Assembly: GCF_028693505.1 (NCBI RefSeq)
Contig: NZ_JAQUVF010000006.1
Span: 1-64,000, forward strand
DNA: 64,000 nucleotides
Direction of reading: 5' to 3'
From: Oscillibacter sp.
GTDB taxonomy: Bacteria; Bacillota; Clostridia; Oscillospirales; Oscillospiraceae
This document shows, in pieces, positions 2,823 to 12,576 of this stretch. The number at the start of each line of letters is the position of its first letter. Positions within the stretch are counted from its first letter, which is position 1. The position numbers and the translations under genes are program-made. Below the pieces are notes generated by a model. That model was not told the DNA's origin, searched no databases, and saw nothing but the letters and a program-made list of their open reading frames with translations.

Positions 2823-3590
2823 ATGAACGAAGAAAAAAAGGACGCCCTGACGGCGGAGGCAGACGGTATCATCGAAGGCCGCAATGCCGTGATCGAGGCG
2901 CTTCGCGCGGGCGAGAACATTGACAAGATCTATCTCCAAAAGGGGGAGACGGACCGGACGCTGGGCCACATCGCATCCAAGGCGAGAGCCGCAGGCGTTG
3001 TTGTGGTGGAGGCGGACCGGCGGAAGCTGGACTCCATGAGCCGTACCCACGCCCATCAGGGCGTCATCGCGCTGGCGGCGGTGCGGGAGTATGTCAGCGT
3101 GGAGCGCATTTTGGAGATCGCGGCGGAAAAGGGGGAGCCTCCCCTGATCGTCGTGTGCGACGAAATTTCCGATCCCCACAATCTGGGCGCCATCATCCGC
3201 ACGGCGGAGTGCGCCGGGGCCCACGGCGTGGTGATCCCCAAGCGCCGCAGCGCGGGACTGACCGCCGTGGTGGCCAAGACCTCCGCCGGGGCGGTGGCCC
3301 ATGTGCCGGTGGCCCGGGTGCCCAACATTCCGGCCCTTTTGAAGGACCTCAAAAAGCAGGGCGTGTGGGTGTTCGGCACGGCGGCGGGCGGAAGTACGGC
3401 GCTCTATGACGCCGATCTCAAGGGCCCGGCGGCCATCGTCATCGGCAGCGAGGGGGACGGCATGACCCGTTTGGCCGTGGAAAACTGTGATTTTCTGGTG
3501 AGCATCCCCATGCGGGGAAAGCTCAGCTCCCTGAATGCCTCCGCGTCGGCAGCGATTTTGCTGTACGAGGCGGTGCGTCAGCGGCAGTAA
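2823..3590 (+). CDS. rlmB: 23S rRNA (guanosine-2'-O-)-methyltransferase RlmB (SpoU/TrmH family)
   Basis: SPOUT-class SAM methyltransferase predicted to 2'-O-methylate G2251 (E. coli numbering) in 23S rRNA. The 255-residue protein has the usual size and order: an N-terminal L30e-like substrate-binding domain (about 12-90), then the knotted catalytic domain. The three SpoU motifs are visible: DPHNLGAIIRTAE from residue 117, VIGSEGDGM near 201, and IPMRGKLSSLNASASAAI near 228. TAAGGAGA precedes ATG at 2823. It is followed after 21 bp by the pseudo-ATPase gene, so the two are probably cotranscribed. In many clostridia rlmB sits near cysS or mrnC instead. Confidence 0.94.
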   Translation: MNEEKKDALTAEADGIIEGRNAVIEALRAGENIDKIYLQKGETDRTLGHIASKARAAGVVVVEADRRKLDSMSRTHAHQGVIALAAVREYVSVERILEIAAEKGEPPLIVVCDEISDPHNLGAIIRTAECAGAHGVVIPKRRSAGLTAVVAKTSAGAVAHVPVARVPNIPALLKDLKKQGVWVFGTAAGGSTALYDADLKGPAAIVIGSEGDGMTRLAVENCDFLVSIPMRGKLSSLNASASAAILLYEAVRQRQ

Positions 3591-3611
3591 CACGAGGAAA
3601 GGACCGGCAGC

Positions 3612-5756
3612 ATGATCCCAAAGGACGAGAAAAAACGAAATAGCGCAGCTTTCCTCGCCGACGGGACGGATGTGCCGGCGGAGGAGACAGACTTCTCTCT
3701 GGAGGAGATTCTGGCTGAATACGGCGCGGGACGCGAGCAGCAGATTTTGCGGGATGTGGAGCAGTCCGTCTGCCCCGCCCCTTCGGCGGAGAAGCCCACC
3801 GAAGAGACAAAAATGCCGCCTGCAATGCCGCCTGTACGCGAGGGCGTGCCGGAGATCCCGGCCACTGCGGAGACGGAAAGGCCCCGGCAGGGGGCTTCGC
3901 TGCACGCCGAGGCCCCATGTGAGCTATTCGAGCTGGAAAAGGAACTGCCGAAAGCGCCCCGCCCCATTTCGCTGGAAGAGGTGGTGGGCAGCACGGTGGA
4001 CGCGGTGATGGAAGAACACCGCGAACCGCTGCTTCAGCGGCCCCGGGGCCTGTTTTCCCGGCGGCGGCTGGAGGAGACGGAGGAGCTGTACGCACCGCCC
4101 CAGCCGGAAGAAGAGCCGCAAGCGGAGCCTGTGGAGCCGGAGATGGACCCTTGGGACGCCTCGGAGCAATACCGCAGCGAATATCACCGCCGCCGGGGCG
4201 GACTGCTGGCGGCGGCAGTGGCCGCGCTGGTACCGTCCGTGCCTTTGCTGCTGGAGCGGCAGGGCTTTTTGATCCCGGTCTGGTCCGGGGATATCCAGCT
4301 GCAAACCATGGTGCTGCTGGGGTGCCTCGCGGTGGTGGCGCTGCTTTGTCGGAGCGTCTTTGCCAAGGGTGTGCGGATGCTGTGCAGGAAGCGCTGCACC
4401 AGCGAGCTGCTGATCTCCCTCTCCGCTATTCTGACGGCGGGGGACTGCGTAATGCGGCTGCTGGAGCCGGGGCGCAGCGCGACGATGCCCTATGTGTCGG
4501 TAAGCGCGCTGGCGCTGGTGTTTGCCCTCTGGGGAGACAGCCGGGAAAGCCGGGGGCGCTACGACACGTTCCGCGCCGCGGCGATGGACGATGAGCCGCC
4601 CTACCTCGTGACGGAGACGGGCCGCGGCGCCTGCAAGCAGCGGGGCGAGCTGCCGGGATTCTATACCGCCGCCATGCGGGACGACGCCGCAACGCTCTGG
4701 CAGACGGTGCTGCTGCCGGTGGTGCTGATGGCCTCGCTGGTGTTTGCCGGACTCAGCTCTCTGGGACAGGGGCGCGGCGCCGACTTCTTACTGAATTGGT
4801 CCGCTATTTTGGCCTCCGGCGCTACCTTTGCGCTGCCGCTTTGCTGGGGGCTGCCCTTTTCCAAGCTGGCGGCGCACCTGCAAAAAACGGGCTGCGCCGT
4901 GGGGGGCTGGCTGGGCGCGGAAAAGATCAGCCGGAAAAAAAGCATGATTTTGACGGACGCGGACCTGTTTCCGCCGGGGACCATCCAGCTCAACGGCGTG
5001 AAGGTGTTTGGCGAGGAGATGAGAAAAGCCACCTCCTACGCCGCCACCATGGCCCGGGCGGCGGGCAGCGGGCTGGAGCGGCTGTTTGACGGGCTGGTGC
5101 GCAGCGAGGGCGGTCATTACGAAAAAGCCGACGATTTCAGCTTTTTCGAAGAGGGCGGCTGGTCCGCCACCATCCACGGAGAGTCCGTGCTGATGGGGAC
5201 CGCTTCCTTCATGCGCAAGATGGAGGTCCGGATGCCGGGCAACATCAACCTGAAAACCGGCATGTTTCTCACGGTGGACCACCAGCTTATCGCGGTGTTC
5301 GCGGTGAAATACAATCCGGCGGAAAATGTGGACTTCGCCCTGCGGATGATGCGGCGCAGCCGTATCATGCCCATTTTGGCATCCCGGGACCCCAACATCA
5401 CGCCATCGCTGCTCAAACGCAAATTTTATAAGGGCGTGAAGGTGGAGTATCCCAATCTCACCACCCGGGTGGCGCTGAGCGAGGCGGAAAAGGACCGGGG
5501 ACTGCCCCGGGCGCTGCTGTTCCGGGAGGGGCTGCTGCCCTATGCCGAGACGGTGGCGGGCAGCCGTAGGCTGTGCAAGGCCGTCCGGCGGGCCACGCTG
5601 CTGGGACTTCTGGGCAGCGCCGCGGGAACGCTGCTGTCATTCTATCTCGTGAGCATGGGGGCTTACAGTCTGCTGACGCCGCTGGCGCTGGAGGTTTTCC
5701 TGCTGCTGTGGACGCTGCCAGTTTTGCTCATGACGGAGTGGACGGGCTGGTATTGA
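3612..5756 (+). CDS. Degenerate P-type ATPase-like membrane protein (predicted pseudo-ATPase)
   Basis: No confident family name. The 714-residue protein has an acidic, Pro-rich cytoplasmic N-terminus (1-190), then eight predicted membrane segments (about 196-215, 231-251, 264-284, 290-307, 362-384, 393-418, 661-683, 684-708). A ~240-residue cytoplasmic domain lies between TM6 and TM7, the layout of a P1B heavy-metal ATPase. LCWGLPFSKLA (410-420) sits where P1B pumps have CPCALGLATP. MILTDADLFPPGT (445-457) sits at the phosphorylation motif, with Asp449 but no KTGT. LASRDPNIT (589-597) replaces the TGDN region. The actuator loop is only ~54 residues with no TGE, and no GDGxND is found. The fold is probably retained but catalysis lost. 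The start follows GAGGAAAGG. Confidence 0.6.
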   Translation: MIPKDEKKRNSAAFLADGTDVPAEETDFSLEEILAEYGAGREQQILRDVEQSVCPAPSAEKPTEETKMPPAMPPVREGVPEIPATAETERPRQGASLHAEAPCELFELEKELPKAPRPISLEEVVGSTVDAVMEEHREPLLQRPRGLFSRRRLEETEELYAPPQPEEEPQAEPVEPEMDPWDASEQYRSEYHRRRGGLLAAAVAALVPSVPLLLERQGFLIPVWSGDIQLQTMVLLGCLAVVALLCRSVFAKGVRMLCRKRCTSELLISLSAILTAGDCVMRLLEPGRSATMPYVSVSALALVFALWGDSRESRGRYDTFRAAAMDDEPPYLVTETGRGACKQRGELPGFYTAAMRDDAATLWQTVLLPVVLMASLVFAGLSSLGQGRGADFLLNWSAILASGATFALPLCWGLPFSKLAAHLQKTGCAVGGWLGAEKISRKKSMILTDADLFPPGTIQLNGVKVFGEEMRKATSYAATMARAAGSGLERLFDGLVRSEGGHYEKADDFSFFEEGGWSATIHGESVLMGTASFMRKMEVRMPGNINLKTGMFLTVDHQLIAVFAVKYNPAENVDFALRMMRRSRIMPILASRDPNITPSLLKRKFYKGVKVEYPNLTTRVALSEAEKDRGLPRALLFREGLLPYAETVAGSRRLCKAVRRATLLGLLGSAAGTLLSFYLVSMGAYSLLTPLALEVFLLLWTLPVLLMTEWTGWY

Positions 5757-5837: not shown

Positions 5838-5882
5838 ACAAAACTCCCCGGGCACCGTTGAAGTGCCCGGGGAGTTTTGTTT
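5838..5882. terminator. Bidirectional intrinsic terminator
   Basis: A 15-bp perfect stem (AAACTCCCCGGGCAC at 5841-5855, complement at 5863-5877) has an A-run on one side and a T-run on the other. It serves the pseudo-ATPase gene on + and the small membrane gene on -. Confidence 0.85.
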
Positions 5883-5931: not shown

Positions 5932-6189
5932 TTATCCCCAAAGCTTCCATAGATAGCTTCCAATGGTGCAAACGCTGCATCCATAAAGAACCAGCGCACA
6001 GGCGGTGATGAGCCGCGCCTTTTTCTTTTCGCCTTTGACGGCATAGGTCTTGGCATTGATGGTGTAGGCCACGGCAAAAAAGAAGAAGCCCATTTGCAGG
6101 AACAGTTCCTTTTGGGAAAAAACCTTGATAAAACTGCCCAGTATGAAAATACTGCCCAGAACAATGAAGCCATTCATCACTTTATTCAT
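5932..6189 (-). CDS. Small hypothetical membrane protein (85 aa)
   Basis: Not recognised. The 85-residue product is dominated by hydrophobic stretches (about 6-23, 30-46 and 60-80), separated by short basic loops including VKGEKKKAR. That predicts two or three membrane helices. There are no cofactor motifs. GGGAG lies about 10 nt before ATG at 6189, and the gene ends just before a strong convergent terminator. Both support a real small gene, although there is no family evidence. It lies downstream of ilvD on the same strand with a 109-bp gap. Confidence 0.6.
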   Translation of the reverse strand: MNKVMNGFIVLGSIFILGSFIKVFSQKELFLQMGFFFFAVAYTINAKTYAVKGEKKKARLITACALVLYGCSVCTIGSYLWKLWG

Positions 6190-8266: not shown

Positions 8267-8364
8267 TTCTACATTAGACACCCCGGCGGACCGCCAAATG
8301 ACTGATTTCGGCAGGGCGGATGCCGGAGCGCGTCATCAGCACAAACATAAGGAGTGGAACGATC

Positions 8365-10434
8365 ATGAGCTATTCTGTACAGAACATCCGGAACGTCTGC
8401 CTGCTGGGACACAGCGGCAGCGGCAAGACTGCCTTGGCCGAGAGCCTGCTCTATATGACCGGCGCGATCGACCGCATGGGCCGCATGGCGGACGGAAACA
8501 CCGTCTGCGACTATGATCCCGAGGAGATCAAGCGTCAGATTTCTCTTTCTGCCGCCGTTGCCCCTCTGGAGTATAAGGGCTGCCGCATCAATGTGCTGGA
8601 TACCCCGGGCGCTTTCGATTTTGCCGGCGAGGTCATGGAGGCCCTGCGGGCCGCCGACGCCGCCGTGATCGTCTGCTCCGCCAAGGACGGCATTTCCGTG
8701 GGCCTGGAAAAGGCCTGGAAATACTGCGAGGAGCGGAATATGCCCCGTTTTGTCTATATCTCCAAGACGGACGAGGAAAACAGCGACTACAACGCCACCT
8801 TCGACGCCCTGCGAGAGCACTTTGGCAAGAAGATTGCCCCCGTGGTGGTGCCCATTTGGGACGCGGACAAGAGAGTCACCGGCCTCATCGACGTGCTGAA
8901 CAAGCGCGCCTATGAGATGCAGCAGCTCAAGCGGGTGGAGATCGAGGTGCCTGCCGACAAGGAAAGCGTCATCAGCGAGTTCAACGACGCGCTGAAGGAG
9001 TCTGTGGCGGAGACCAGCGAGGCGCTGATGGAGAAATTCTTCAGCGGAGAGGACTTCACCTACCCGGAGATGATTCAGGGCCTGCGCCAGGGCGTGCGGG
9101 AATTGAACCTGATCCCGGTGCTGTGCGGCTCCGCCGTCAACTGCATGGGAAGCCTCATGCTGATGGACAACATCGTGGAGCTGCTGCCCAACCCCACGGA
9201 GGGCAACTACCACAAGGCCACCCGGCAGGACGGCGAGACGGAGGAATTTGTGGTTTCCCCCGGCGGCGTGCCCACCGCGTTCGTATTCAAGACCGTCTCC
9301 GACCAGTACGGAAAATTCTCCTTTGTCAAGGTGCTCTCCGGCGCTATTACCCCGGATTTGAGTATGGTCAATGCCCGCACCGGCTCCGCGGAAAAGCTGG
9401 GGCATCTTTATATCATGCGAGGCAAAAAGACCACGGAGGTCAAGGAACTGGGCTGCGGCGAGATCGGCGTCATCGCAAAGATGGACAAGGTGAAAACCGG
9501 CGATACGCTGTGCGACGCCAGAAAGGTCGTCTCCCTGAAGAGCATCCCCTTTGCCGAGCCCTGCTACTCTGTGGCCATCGTGCCCAAGACCCGGGGACAG
9601 GAGGATAAGATCGCCCAGGGGCTGGTCCGCTTGAATGAAGAGGACCCCACCTTTACCGTGACGAACAACGCCGAGACCCACCAGATGGTCCTCTCCGGCG
9701 CGGGCGACATGCAGGTGGACGTTCTGGTGAGCAAGCTGAAAAACCGGTTCAATGTGGAATCCGAGCTGAAAACCGTCCGCGTGCCGTACCGTGAGAAGAT
9801 TCGCAAGATCGTCCAGAAACAGGGCCGCCATAAAAAGCAGACCGGCGGCAGCGGCCAGTTCGGCGATGTCTGGGTCCGCTTTGAGCCTCAGACCGAATCG
9901 GATGAAATGGTCTTTACGGAAGAGGTGTTCGGCGGCAGCGTGCCCAGAAACTTCTTCCCCGCCGTGGAAAAGGGCCTGCGGGAGGCTTGCATCCATGGGC
10001 CGCTGGCGGGCTATCCGGTGGTGAATTTGAAGGCCGTTTTGTATGACGGGTCCTATCACCCGGTGGACTCTTCCGAAATCGCCTTCAAGACGGCGGCGCA
10101 GCTGGCCTATAAGGCCGCTCTGCCCGAGGCGAATCCTGTTTTGCTGGAGCCGGTGGGCGAGCTGAAGGTCACGGTGCCCGATACCTATATGGGCGATGTC
10201 ATGGGCGATTTGAATAAACGCCGGGGCCGTGTCATGGGTATGGACCCCACGGATGATGGCTCGCAGGTCATCACGGCGGAGGTTCCCATGGCCGAGATGG
10301 GCGGATATGCCATCGACCTGCGGTCCATGACCCAGAGCCGGGGCAGCTTCGTGTTCCACTTTGTCCGCTATGAGGACTGCCCGCCTGCCGCGCAGGAAAA
10401 GGCGATTGCCGAGGCCAAGGCGCTGGCGGAGTAA
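8365..10434 (+). CDS. Elongation factor G-like translational GTPase
   Basis: A 689-residue EF-G family GTPase. G1 is GHSGSGKT (15-22), G3 DTPG (79-82), and the G4 position reads SKTD (133-136) where translational EF-G has NKMD. EF-G domains II to V follow, including GGSGQFGDVWVRFEP and the C-terminal YMGDVMGDLNKRRGRVMGM motif. The altered G4 and weak switch I suggest the EF-G-like paralogue subgroup found beside the main fusA in Firmicutes and Actinobacteria, not the essential EF-G, which normally lies in the str operon. The precise role is unknown. The start is ATG at 8365 behind AAGGAG. An upstream in-frame ATG lacks a ribosome site. Confidence 0.85.
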   Translation: MSYSVQNIRNVCLLGHSGSGKTALAESLLYMTGAIDRMGRMADGNTVCDYDPEEIKRQISLSAAVAPLEYKGCRINVLDTPGAFDFAGEVMEALRAADAAVIVCSAKDGISVGLEKAWKYCEERNMPRFVYISKTDEENSDYNATFDALREHFGKKIAPVVVPIWDADKRVTGLIDVLNKRAYEMQQLKRVEIEVPADKESVISEFNDALKESVAETSEALMEKFFSGEDFTYPEMIQGLRQGVRELNLIPVLCGSAVNCMGSLMLMDNIVELLPNPTEGNYHKATRQDGETEEFVVSPGGVPTAFVFKTVSDQYGKFSFVKVLSGAITPDLSMVNARTGSAEKLGHLYIMRGKKTTEVKELGCGEIGVIAKMDKVKTGDTLCDARKVVSLKSIPFAEPCYSVAIVPKTRGQEDKIAQGLVRLNEEDPTFTVTNNAETHQMVLSGAGDMQVDVLVSKLKNRFNVESELKTVRVPYREKIRKIVQKQGRHKKQTGGSGQFGDVWVRFEPQTESDEMVFTEEVFGGSVPRNFFPAVEKGLREACIHGPLAGYPVVNLKAVLYDGSYHPVDSSEIAFKTAAQLAYKAALPEANPVLLEPVGELKVTVPDTYMGDVMGDLNKRRGRVMGMDPTDDGSQVITAEVPMAEMGGYAIDLRSMTQSRGSFVFHFVRYEDCPPAAQEKAIAEAKALAE

Positions 10435-10530: not shown

Positions 10531-10857
10531 TTATAGATATACCTGCCACTCGGGATGGTAGAGCAGGGCCCACGCCATGGCGTAAAGGCACAGGGCGGCG
10601 CAGACCAGAAGGAAGCACAGCGCCATCCCCACCCAGTCATAGCGGACCCTTCCGCCGCTCCGGGCGGAGAGAAGCGTTTCCACGCCGAGACTCACAAGGA
10701 TGAGGGGGGCGCCTTGCAGCGCCCAGCGCAGGTCCAGCCCCGGGAAAAACAGGGACAGGGCCATCAGCGCGCCGGCGAGAATCAGCACCGCGCCCAGCGT
10801 GAAGGTCCCCACCCGGCGAACGGGAGCCTCTGCCGCGGCGGGATCAGTCGTTTTCAT
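10531..10857 (-). CDS. Hypothetical membrane protein, last gene of ECF sigma operon
   Basis: Not recognised. From ATG at 10857 it encodes 108 residues with hydrophobic helices at about 17-37, 43-60 and 75-100, so probably three or four membrane spans. The arrangement resembles small LiaI/LiaF-TM (DUF5668-like) envelope-stress proteins, but that is only a resemblance. The start lies inside the preceding gene (14-bp overlap), so translational coupling is likely. The frame is open further upstream (to 10953), but that part is an Arg-rich out-of-frame reading of the neighbour. Confidence 0.7.
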   Translation of the reverse strand: MKTTDPAAAEAPVRRVGTFTLGAVLILAGALMALSLFFPGLDLRWALQGAPLILVSLGVETLLSARSGGRVRYDWVGMALCFLLVCAALCLYAMAWALLYHPEWQVYL

Positions 10858-11419
10858 GAGACTTCTCCGTTTCCGCGCCCGACGGGGTAAAGGGCGGGAT
10901 TTCTTCCGCGGCGGCCTTTTTCGGCCCCCGGATAAACCAGACGCCCAGCGCAATGATTCCGATGGTCATGGCCAGCCGGGGCACGTCGTAGATCAAAAGA
11001 TCGAAAAGCCAGTCTACTTGCCAGAGCAGGTCCCCCAGAATCCGCCGCACCAGTCGGTCGTACAGCAGGTATCCGCCAAGAGCCACCAGCACCCAGCCCA
11101 CCACGCTGTGCCGCTTGCGGCAAAGATCGGAAAGCTTTTTGGAGTCCAGATCGGAAAAGCCGAAAAGATATTCGTCCGGGTTGGCGGCGGCCTCCTCGTC
11201 GGACTGGGCGCGGAGATTGTAGCTGTCAAAGAAGGAGAACAGCCACAGCGGCAGCATCAAAATCGCCAGCGCCGCGATTTCCAAAAAGATCGCCAGCGCG
11301 AAAATGGCGCAGAAAGCCGTGAGGATGGAGGCGCCCCGCTTCATATAGCCCTGGTGCATCTCTCCGCAGCCGGGAATGCAGGAAGCGAGAAAGAGAAAAA
11401 GTCCGTGTTTGCGTTTCAT
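10844..11419 (-). CDS. Membrane protein of ECF sigma operon (TM2-like N-terminus)
   Basis: A 191-residue protein of unknown function. The N-terminus reads LASCIPGCGEMHQGYMKRG, then a long hydrophobic stretch (about 30-62) ending in LFSFFDSYNLRA. This pattern resembles TM2-type and related clostridial membrane proteins (GxGxMYLGxxxRG ... DAY). Two further membrane segments lie near 107-125 and 147-163, and the tail is acidic and hydrophilic. Its ATG overlaps the stop of the anti-sigma gene by 4 bp (ATGA), so it is cotranscribed and coupled with it. Confidence 0.75.
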   Translation of the reverse strand: MKRKHGLFLFLASCIPGCGEMHQGYMKRGASILTAFCAIFALAIFLEIAALAILMLPLWLFSFFDSYNLRAQSDEEAAANPDEYLFGFSDLDSKKLSDLCRKRHSVVGWVLVALGGYLLYDRLVRRILGDLLWQVDWLFDLLIYDVPRLAMTIGIIALGVWFIRGPKKAAAEEIPPFTPSGAETEKSHEND

Positions 11420-11892
11420 GAGTGCGTTCCTCCTTGTGTGGGTTCGGACCGCTGTTGGGCAGATCCGCTGAAAAGATTGTTAAAGTCGGAGAGCGCCCGA
11501 TTCAAAGAGGCGTTCCATTCCTCCGGCCAGGTGCGCAGGCGCTGGGAAAAGGCGGGGGAGGCTTCCGGCAGGCGGGGGATGAAATCTAGATTCCCGCTGC
11601 CCCAGACCACCGTCAGCGCCAGCGCCACCGCAGCCACCGCAGTGGCGTAACGGCTGGTGACAAGGCGGAGGGTCCGCTGGCGGATGCGCCGAAAGAGACT
11701 TTCCCGGCAGGAGTGGGGGGGGAATTGCAGCTCCGCGCCGGAAAGAGCGTTTGTGTACCGCTGGAGACAGCTGTCGCAATAGGAGAGGTGCTCCGCGATT
11801 TCCAGACGTGCCAGCTCGTCCAAATTGCTTTCCTGCATCAGTGCGCACAGGGCTGCGTCGCTTAAGTGTCCGTCAGGGCGAAAAATTTCCAT
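11416..11892 (-). CDS. Putative anti-sigma factor with zinc-finger (zf-HC2-like) motif
   Basis: A 158-residue predicted single-pass membrane protein. The N-terminal cytoplasmic domain carries HLSYCDSC (His-x3-Cys-x2-Cys), the signature of zinc-binding anti-sigma domains that clamp ECF sigma factors. One membrane helix follows (about 82-99, YATAVAAVALALTVVW), then a ~55-residue extracytoplasmic tail. It lies directly after the sigma factor gene with a 20-bp overlap, the standard sigma/anti-sigma order. The signal sensed is unknown. Confidence 0.85.
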   Translation of the reverse strand: MEIFRPDGHLSDAALCALMQESNLDELARLEIAEHLSYCDSCLQRYTNALSGAELQFPPHSCRESLFRRIRQRTLRLVTSRYATAVAAVALALTVVWGSGNLDFIPRLPEASPAFSQRLRTWPEEWNASLNRALSDFNNLFSGSAQQRSEPTQGGTHS

Positions 11893-12391
11893 GCGTCTGC
11901 CTCCTTTCCAAATGTTCCCGCAAGAGTTTTTTTCCCCGGGAGAGCTGTGTGTGGATGGTTTTTACGGGCCTTCCTAGCGCCAGCGCCGCCTCCTCCGGAG
12001 AGCGTTCCTCCAAAAGACACAGGCGGCACACCGGACGGTAAGGCTCCTTCAGCGCCGCGACGGCCGATGCGATCTCCTGAGCGCCGGTGCGCGATAGCGC
12101 CACCTCCTCCGTGGGCGGGGCCAGCCCGGGGGGCATTTCCTCGTCTCCCGGCAGTATGGTGTGGCGGTTCCACGCGCTTTGCAGATGGTCCTTGGCCTTG
12201 TTGGCGGCAATGCGCCCCAGCCACTGCCGCTCATAGCCCGCAGGCATGGTCTCCCGGTGGAGGTAAGCGGAAAGAAAGGTCTCCTGCGTCAGGTCTTCCG
12301 CAGCGGCGGCGTCGTGGACCAGTTGGAAACAGATGGTGTACACCAGACGCTCATATTGGACCACCAGCTGTGAAAAATGCTCTTTGGTCAT
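11873..12391 (-). CDS. ECF-type RNA polymerase sigma factor
   Basis: A 172-residue sigma-70 family member with only regions 2 and 4. Region 2 includes LVYTICFQLVHDAAAAEDLTQETF, and region 4 includes a helix-turn-helix ending SRGKKLLREHL. ATG at 12391 is chosen because the family starts close to region 2. The open frame extends to 12472 through a weak TTG. It heads a four-gene minus-strand operon with its anti-sigma factor and two membrane proteins, consistent with an envelope-stress regulon. No clear autoregulated ECF promoter was identified, although TATGAT near 12432 could be a -10. Confidence 0.92.
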   Translation of the reverse strand: MTKEHFSQLVVQYERLVYTICFQLVHDAAAAEDLTQETFLSAYLHRETMPAGYERQWLGRIAANKAKDHLQSAWNRHTILPGDEEMPPGLAPPTEEVALSRTGAQEIASAVAALKEPYRPVCRLCLLEERSPEEAALALGRPVKTIHTQLSRGKKLLREHLERRQTHGNFSP

Positions 12392-12576
12392 CAAACCGTC
12401 CGCCGCCTCCTCTCTTTGATTGCTCTTTCTATCATACGGTATCGCGGAGCGAAAATCTTCAAAACTACGCAAAAATTTTCAAAAAAGCTGTCGGAACTTT
12501 TTTCTGTGAAGATTTTGTGGTAAAATAGTCAAAACAGCGCTTGGCGCGGGCACCGCGCCGGACCGGGCAGTTTTTC

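Follow-up and report, generated by a model that had tools for sequence, protein, structure and literature searches.

A P1B-type ATPase homologue with rewritten catalytic motifs, kept behind rlmB in the Oscillospirales, probably serves in docking or sensing

A 714-residue, catalytically altered homologue of the P1B-type ATPases is encoded at 3612..5756 (+) of the window, by which we mean the whole 64,000-nucleotide stretch of DNA that was analysed. We refer to it as the pseudo-pump; its assignment comes from the open reading frame, its family, and profile and structure matches. The intact 714-codon frame with a good ribosome site claimed by the original prediction is present, as the ATG frame runs from 3612 to 5756 and the ribosome-binding site AGGAAAGG (3595..3602, +), read from the sequence itself, lies nine bases 5' of the ATG. 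The gene for the 23S rRNA (guanosine-2251-2'-O)-methyltransferase, rlmB (2823..3590, +), is found 21 bases upstream and matches TIGR00186 at 240.6 bits, above the cut-off. On the other side, a hairpin of 18 bp (5838-5880, +; -35.4 kcal/mol, z -7.6), bordered by runs of A and T, is located between convergent genes. It is terminator-like and could stop transcription on both strands; a simple terminator scan did not include it among its predictions. Between the pseudo-pump and ilvD there is a gene for an 85-aa protein (5932-6189, - strand), which is membrane-like by eye and matched no NCBIfam model at E 1e-10. This small gene and ilvD separate the pseudo-pump from an EF-G-like GTPase gene (8320..10434, +; NF009381, 882 bits), which in many relatives follows the pseudo-pump on its downstream side. 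The stretch 10844-12472 (- strand) carries an ECF-type sigma factor gene (11873-12472) and then two small genes, one of which (11416-11892) has a zinc-finger-like N-terminus, giving by eye the appearance of a sigma/anti-sigma pair.

Searches with the single pseudo-pump protein were uninformative. Pfam gave no match, NCBIfam and PDB sequence searches gave chance matches only, PHROGs gave nothing useful, and no Pfam or NCBIfam model scored above its cut-off. In contrast, homology to P-type pumps was recovered with the family profile. A profile-profile alignment made with hhalign, which took in all but one of the canonical pumps used in the tree described below (15 of 16), and a structure model built from the core alone (window 4170-5753) both place the protein with the P1B-type ATPases in full-length sequence and fold. 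The structural match to P-type ATPases, on which the original prediction depended, was strong when tested. Chance resemblance was ruled out by the profile, profile-profile and structure matches. Besides the pseudo-pump, PF00122 matches three other P-type ATPases in the same genome, and the two that were examined (L001 and L003) have DKTG, GDGxND, TGE and CPC all present.

Model helices and hydropathy clusters agree with the proposed eight membrane segments in 4+2+2 order, as in P1B-type ATPases, and with a big cytoplasmic domain between TM6 and TM7. All features within the gene are given on the + strand. TM1-TM4, corresponding to MA, MB, M1 and M2 of P1B pumps, span residues of about 188-323 (4173..4580; model helices, hydropathy and alignment). 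They are followed by a shrunken actuator (A) domain without a TGE loop, residues of about 324-358 (4581..4685), for which the alignment was used and the model has two short strands. TM5-TM6 (M3 and M4; 4686..4886) contain Ala-Thr-Phe in place of the former CPC metal site, as seen in the alignments and the model. The fold of the nucleotide-binding (N) domain is found at residues of about 456-568 (4977..5315), with the second Gly of GxG kept and HP absent. TM7-TM8 (M5 and M6), placed by hydropathy and the model at residues of about 641-711 (5532..5744), include Trp700, the top-ranked position for conservation across the pseudo-pump family.

The catalytic motifs of the pumps are missing from the whole family. 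DKTG, GDGxND and CPC occur in none of 160 distinct family cores, the pseudo-pump included; these cores are 192 loci minus exact duplicates and are Oscillibacter-heavy (80 of the 200 relatives kept in the DLFP-pattern search). Close orthologues with an intact DKTGT were looked for and none was found among the 160 cores. The family alignment and the profile-profile alignment show that loss of KTGT and TGE is conserved across the family. In the latter, the P-domain stretch with GDGIND is deleted and about 80 A-domain residues holding TGES are absent, so both motifs reported as missing by the original prediction are indeed gone. The letters TGE occur somewhere in 12 of the 160 cores, CPH in one and SPC in two.

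Where pumps have DKTGTLT, the pseudo-pump has the rewritten loop TDADLFPPGT (residues 448-457; 4953..4982, from the alignments). The Asp had been read as kept, in DADLFPPGT, which is probably off by one residue. In gapless HMMER and hhalign alignments, the phospho-Asp is matched by Thr448 and the Lys after it by Asp449, while the structure model has beta-1 ending at residue 447; these data point to Thr448, not Asp449, as the probable occupant of the phospho-Asp position. The phospho-Asp column is Thr in 125 and Asp in 8 of the 160 cores, and the next column is Asp in 145. Within D[LI]FP of the loop, the Asp is found in 149 of 160 cores and the Phe and the Pro in 157 each, and some distant members have DxxD, not DxD. 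A second correction concerns LCWGLPF, which had been taken to stand for CPCALGL; both HMMER and hhalign align CPC with the Ala-Thr-Phe immediately ahead of it. ASRDPNITP (residues 590-598; 5379..5405, from the alignment and column conservation) lies where pumps have TGDN. The reading of ASRDPNI as an altered TGDN was right that the motif is changed, but 149 of 160 cores still have the Asp of TGD, with the Thr in 50 and Gly replaced by Arg in 138, in the new setting xRDxN[IL]TP. Ahead of the P/N hinge, Tyr567 (5310..5312) replaces a conserved Asp at a weighted frequency of 0.98 and is the second most conserved position by column conservation. In the N domain, the weighted frequencies of the HP pair expected in P1B pumps are 0.00 for His and 0.21 for Pro, and those of GxG are 0.31 for the first Gly and 1.00 for the second.

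The former catalytic sites are among the most conserved parts of the family. With sequence weights, used for all column and segment conservation figures, the mean over twelve former catalytic columns is 3.06 bits compared to 1.45 overall, and most of the twelve hold new residues. This mean was reached by none of 20,000 draws of random columns, in a test that treats neighbouring columns as independent when they are correlated. Six positions of the rewritten cleft rank 2, 3, 4, 5, 6 and 10 of 538 for conservation, one of the six being the unchanged Asp of TGD; one variable column in the loop ranks 423 of 538. The CPC and HP columns show no special conservation, and within the core conservation is lowest in TM1-4 (1.12 bits vs 1.90 for the first P-domain segment). 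Since the former catalytic columns are conserved with new residues and those of CPC and HP are not, the P-domain cleft seems to have been kept for a new use while the metal path relaxed. The conserved rewritten cleft is the strongest functional clue.

The added N-terminus, estimated beforehand at ~190 residues, is a variable arm of 186 residues. Arm length varies widely among members, up to 900 residues when stop-to-stop frames are taken as an upper bound, and the arms are unalignable. A linear motif, FSLEEILAEY (residues 28-37; 3693..3722), was found by its recurrence in N-termini and by alignment. A first strict pattern matched 53 of 106 N-terminal rows. A pattern loosened only after the sequences had been inspected matched 73 of 101 members with an arm of at least 100 residues, compared to 0.2% of shuffled copies, the members being related and the cases therefore not independent. 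The motif is shared by distant families in otherwise dissimilar arms (e.g. L080-L082, L102 and L113). The 28 of 101 members without the loosened pattern lie, for over half, within the distant loci L078-L097. A second helix-like segment, ISLEEVVGSTVDAVMEE (residues 119-135; 3966..4016), was noted by eye and is similar in few relatives. A search of 13 genomes for a partner with the motif profile gave no lead: in the same genome, the pseudo-pump gene was the sole match at E <= 10, and the matches in the genomes of relatives were weaker and chance-like (E 0.11 to 10). The motif looks like an amphipathic docking helix within a predicted disordered arm.

The pseudo-pump was found in Oscillibacter, Dysosmobacter and other Oscillospiraceae, and beyond them in the order. 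It was present in 79/86 genomes of a genus sample (42/42 near-complete), 279/300 of a family sample (186/189 near-complete) and 269/295 of an order sample (213/226 near-complete), where at most three candidates were scored per genome in the family and order samples and some weak single-sequence matches may be non-members. Most genomes had one match. When 13 of the apparent negatives were searched again with the profile, 6 had a member, which in G595 covered part of the profile, and 7 did not. In a class-wide sample, the 12 genomes of the order covered the profile almost completely, with scores of 273 to 662 bits, and 279 genomes outside the order reached at most 129 bits among the matches listed, which were ranked by E-value (at most four candidates per genome). 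The best of these outside matches cover profile positions of about 180 to 462, the region matched by ordinary pumps.

In a tree, 27 family members split from 16 canonical P-type pumps with branch support 100/100; long branches leave the inner order unsure. The canonical pumps, from this and other genomes of the order, were chosen for DKTG, and GDGxND and TGE were present in 16/16 and CPC in 15/16. If the root lies outside the family, the motif loss would have happened once, before the order radiated. That the frame is maintained, as had been proposed, is seen in the purifying selection on it: the median dN/dS was 0.12 for the core (28 non-overlapping close pairs), 0.25 for the N-terminal arm (27 pairs) and 0.074 for rlmB (24 pairs). 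The order-wide conservation, the dN/dS, and the profile and structure matches are beyond chance. Recent decay of a pump copy was ruled out by the retention, the absence of the motifs from all 160 cores, the dN/dS and the single clade.

The tight linkage to rlmB noted at this locus persists across the order, in 149/149 loci with at least 500 bases of upstream sequence. In the main count, 147 of 160 loci had rlmB upstream and in the same direction, and 11 were without upstream sequence; a truncated rlmB was found in the remaining two (L064 and L075) with a lower length limit. Between the stop of rlmB and the pseudo-pump frame lie 3 bases in the median and 1.1 kb at most. The genes beyond rlmB vary, with ftsH here (on the opposite strand) and metK in some relatives. 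The product of metK makes the methyl donor of RlmB. In L278 (L278:8576-10773), metK immediately precedes rlmB and the pseudo-pump, and the same cluster at L280 and L281 means that this arrangement is seen in two genera. In one family, a second rlmB-like frame is located on the opposite strand upstream of rlmB (L084:1-9001, where it scores 71 bits, and L089:1-6205). The EF-G-like (fusA-like) gene is inconstant, being within 2.5 kb downstream in 72 of 160 loci, with none seen in 74 (49 of them with 1.2-4 kb visible) and no sequence in 14. Seven near-complete genomes without a full-length pseudo-pump were also without a true RlmB (<=73 bits, compared to >=180 in carriers). Co-loss of the two genes was set aside as functional proof. 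An assembly gap is more likely because the flanking metK, which is taken as essential, was also missing or cut in the three of these genomes where it was sought (absent from the G215 and G260 assemblies and truncated at a contig end in G357).

Together, these findings make it probable that the family protein is a docking or sensing protein and not a pump. The reading that we favour, with somewhat better than even confidence, is that catalysis was lost in an ancestor and that the protein is a membrane-anchored receptor or scaffold whose cleft binds and whose arm docks; it agrees with the original view of a non-transporting protein maintained as a scaffold or sensor, the scaffold or sensor part of which we infer. 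In the ancestor of the order, a P1B-type (CopA-like) ATPase would have lost both phosphorylation and dephosphorylation, together with Mg2+ binding and its metal site, and would have retained its membrane body and P-N head. The rewritten P-domain cleft (TDxD[LI]FPxG, Tyr567 and RDxN[IL]TP) would then bind a putative ligand or partner, and the long, presumably flexible N-terminal arm would present the helix-like [FY]S[LIV][DE]xILAE[FY] to a putative cytosolic partner, which would belong to ribosome maturation or translation. The fixed place behind rlmB suggests this last tie, and the gene order could also reflect operon inertia. The fuller version, in which a pump body was rebuilt as a receptor with the old active site as its ligand pocket and the arm docking a neighbouring component of ribosome maturation or translation, is possible but doubtful.

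Other explanations were weighed against this receptor or scaffold. As a dead paralogue, the protein could be a regulatory or structural subunit that associates with a live P1B pump of the CopA or Zn type and tunes it. The retained membrane body fits, and a canonical P1B pump scored above the curated cut-off in 36/36 genomes tested; however, such pumps are near universal (13/14 control genomes above the cut-off) and their co-occurrence is uninformative. The fixed neighbour is rlmB and no pump, the metal-site columns have no special conservation, and P1B pumps usually work as monomers, so that we regard a pump subunit as unlikely. DxD is the general pattern of HAD motif I, and the columns of Asp449, Asp451 and the TGD Asp are Asp in 145, 149 and 149 of the 160 cores. 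This would suit an enzyme whose chemistry has changed to that of a HAD-type phosphatase or phosphotransferase, but two aligners match the nucleophile with Thr, beta-1 ends at residue 447, the GDGxND (motif IV) region is deleted and some distant members replace DxD with DxxD, making this quite unlikely. Some chemistry may nevertheless remain, since Asp449, Asp451, Asp593 and Asn595 are conserved polar residues.

A sporulation role, as for many clade-specific membrane proteins of Clostridia, is very unlikely. Spo0A was above the cut-off in 33/36 genomes tested, but the linkage is to rlmB. The three exceptions carry family matches, strong in G126 and G302 (E 1.4e-48 and 6.7e-56), mildly against this role, and weaker in G452 (E 1.2e-10); incomplete assemblies could conceal Spo0A. 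We consider it highly improbable that the old transmembrane path serves as a passive channel or carrier without ATP, as all eight helices would allow, given that CPC is absent in 160/160 cores and that no part of the core is less conserved than TM1-4. Only the motif loss speaks for a decaying pump copy or pseudogene, and its chance is close to nil given the single clade, a dN/dS of 0.12 and the retention of the gene in nearly all sampled genomes.

The pseudo-pump shares the 4+2+2 membrane plan, the P and N folds, and a full-length profile and structure match with P1B-type ATPases such as CopA, ATP7B and HMA4. It differs from them by having no phospho-Asp, TGE, CPC, GDGxND or HP, and by its shrunken A domain, long variable N-terminal arm and rewritten conserved cleft. 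TMEM94, the same protein as ERMA, belongs to a different P-type branch. TMEM94 is a human P-type-ATPase-like protein reported to have no TGES and no ATPase activity (PMC12134183), similar to the pseudo-pump in its P-type plan and defective catalytic machinery, and different in being human and keeping the proposed phospho-Asp D417. Its role is disputed, because ERMA is called an ER Mg2+ ATPase in another paper (PMC13322241). Apicomplexan guanylate cyclases are fused to P4-ATPase-like domains, and the ATPase domain of PfGCbeta is described as degenerated (PMC6592433). These fusions also retain a P-type domain alongside another function, but they are of P4 type, cyclase-fused and eukaryotic. Both cases indicate that P-type bodies can persist despite defective catalysis. 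In the literature searched, no bacterial P-type ATPase family with altered catalytic motifs like those of the pseudo-pump came up.

As a P1B homologue that lacks the catalytic features of the class, the pseudo-pump should not be given the name of copper exporter, and the finding should stop annotators from labelling such genes in this way. The rewritten, fixed cleft provides a test case for the conversion of a transport ATPase into a binding protein, and its conserved residues are a list of mutants to make. Across the samples of this gut-common order, the gene is nearly always present, mostly single copy and locked to rlmB; therefore, the pseudo-pump probably has a basic role in the order. If true, a pump turned receptor would connect the modification of 23S rRNA with the membrane, or else with a signal carried by a nucleotide or metabolite.
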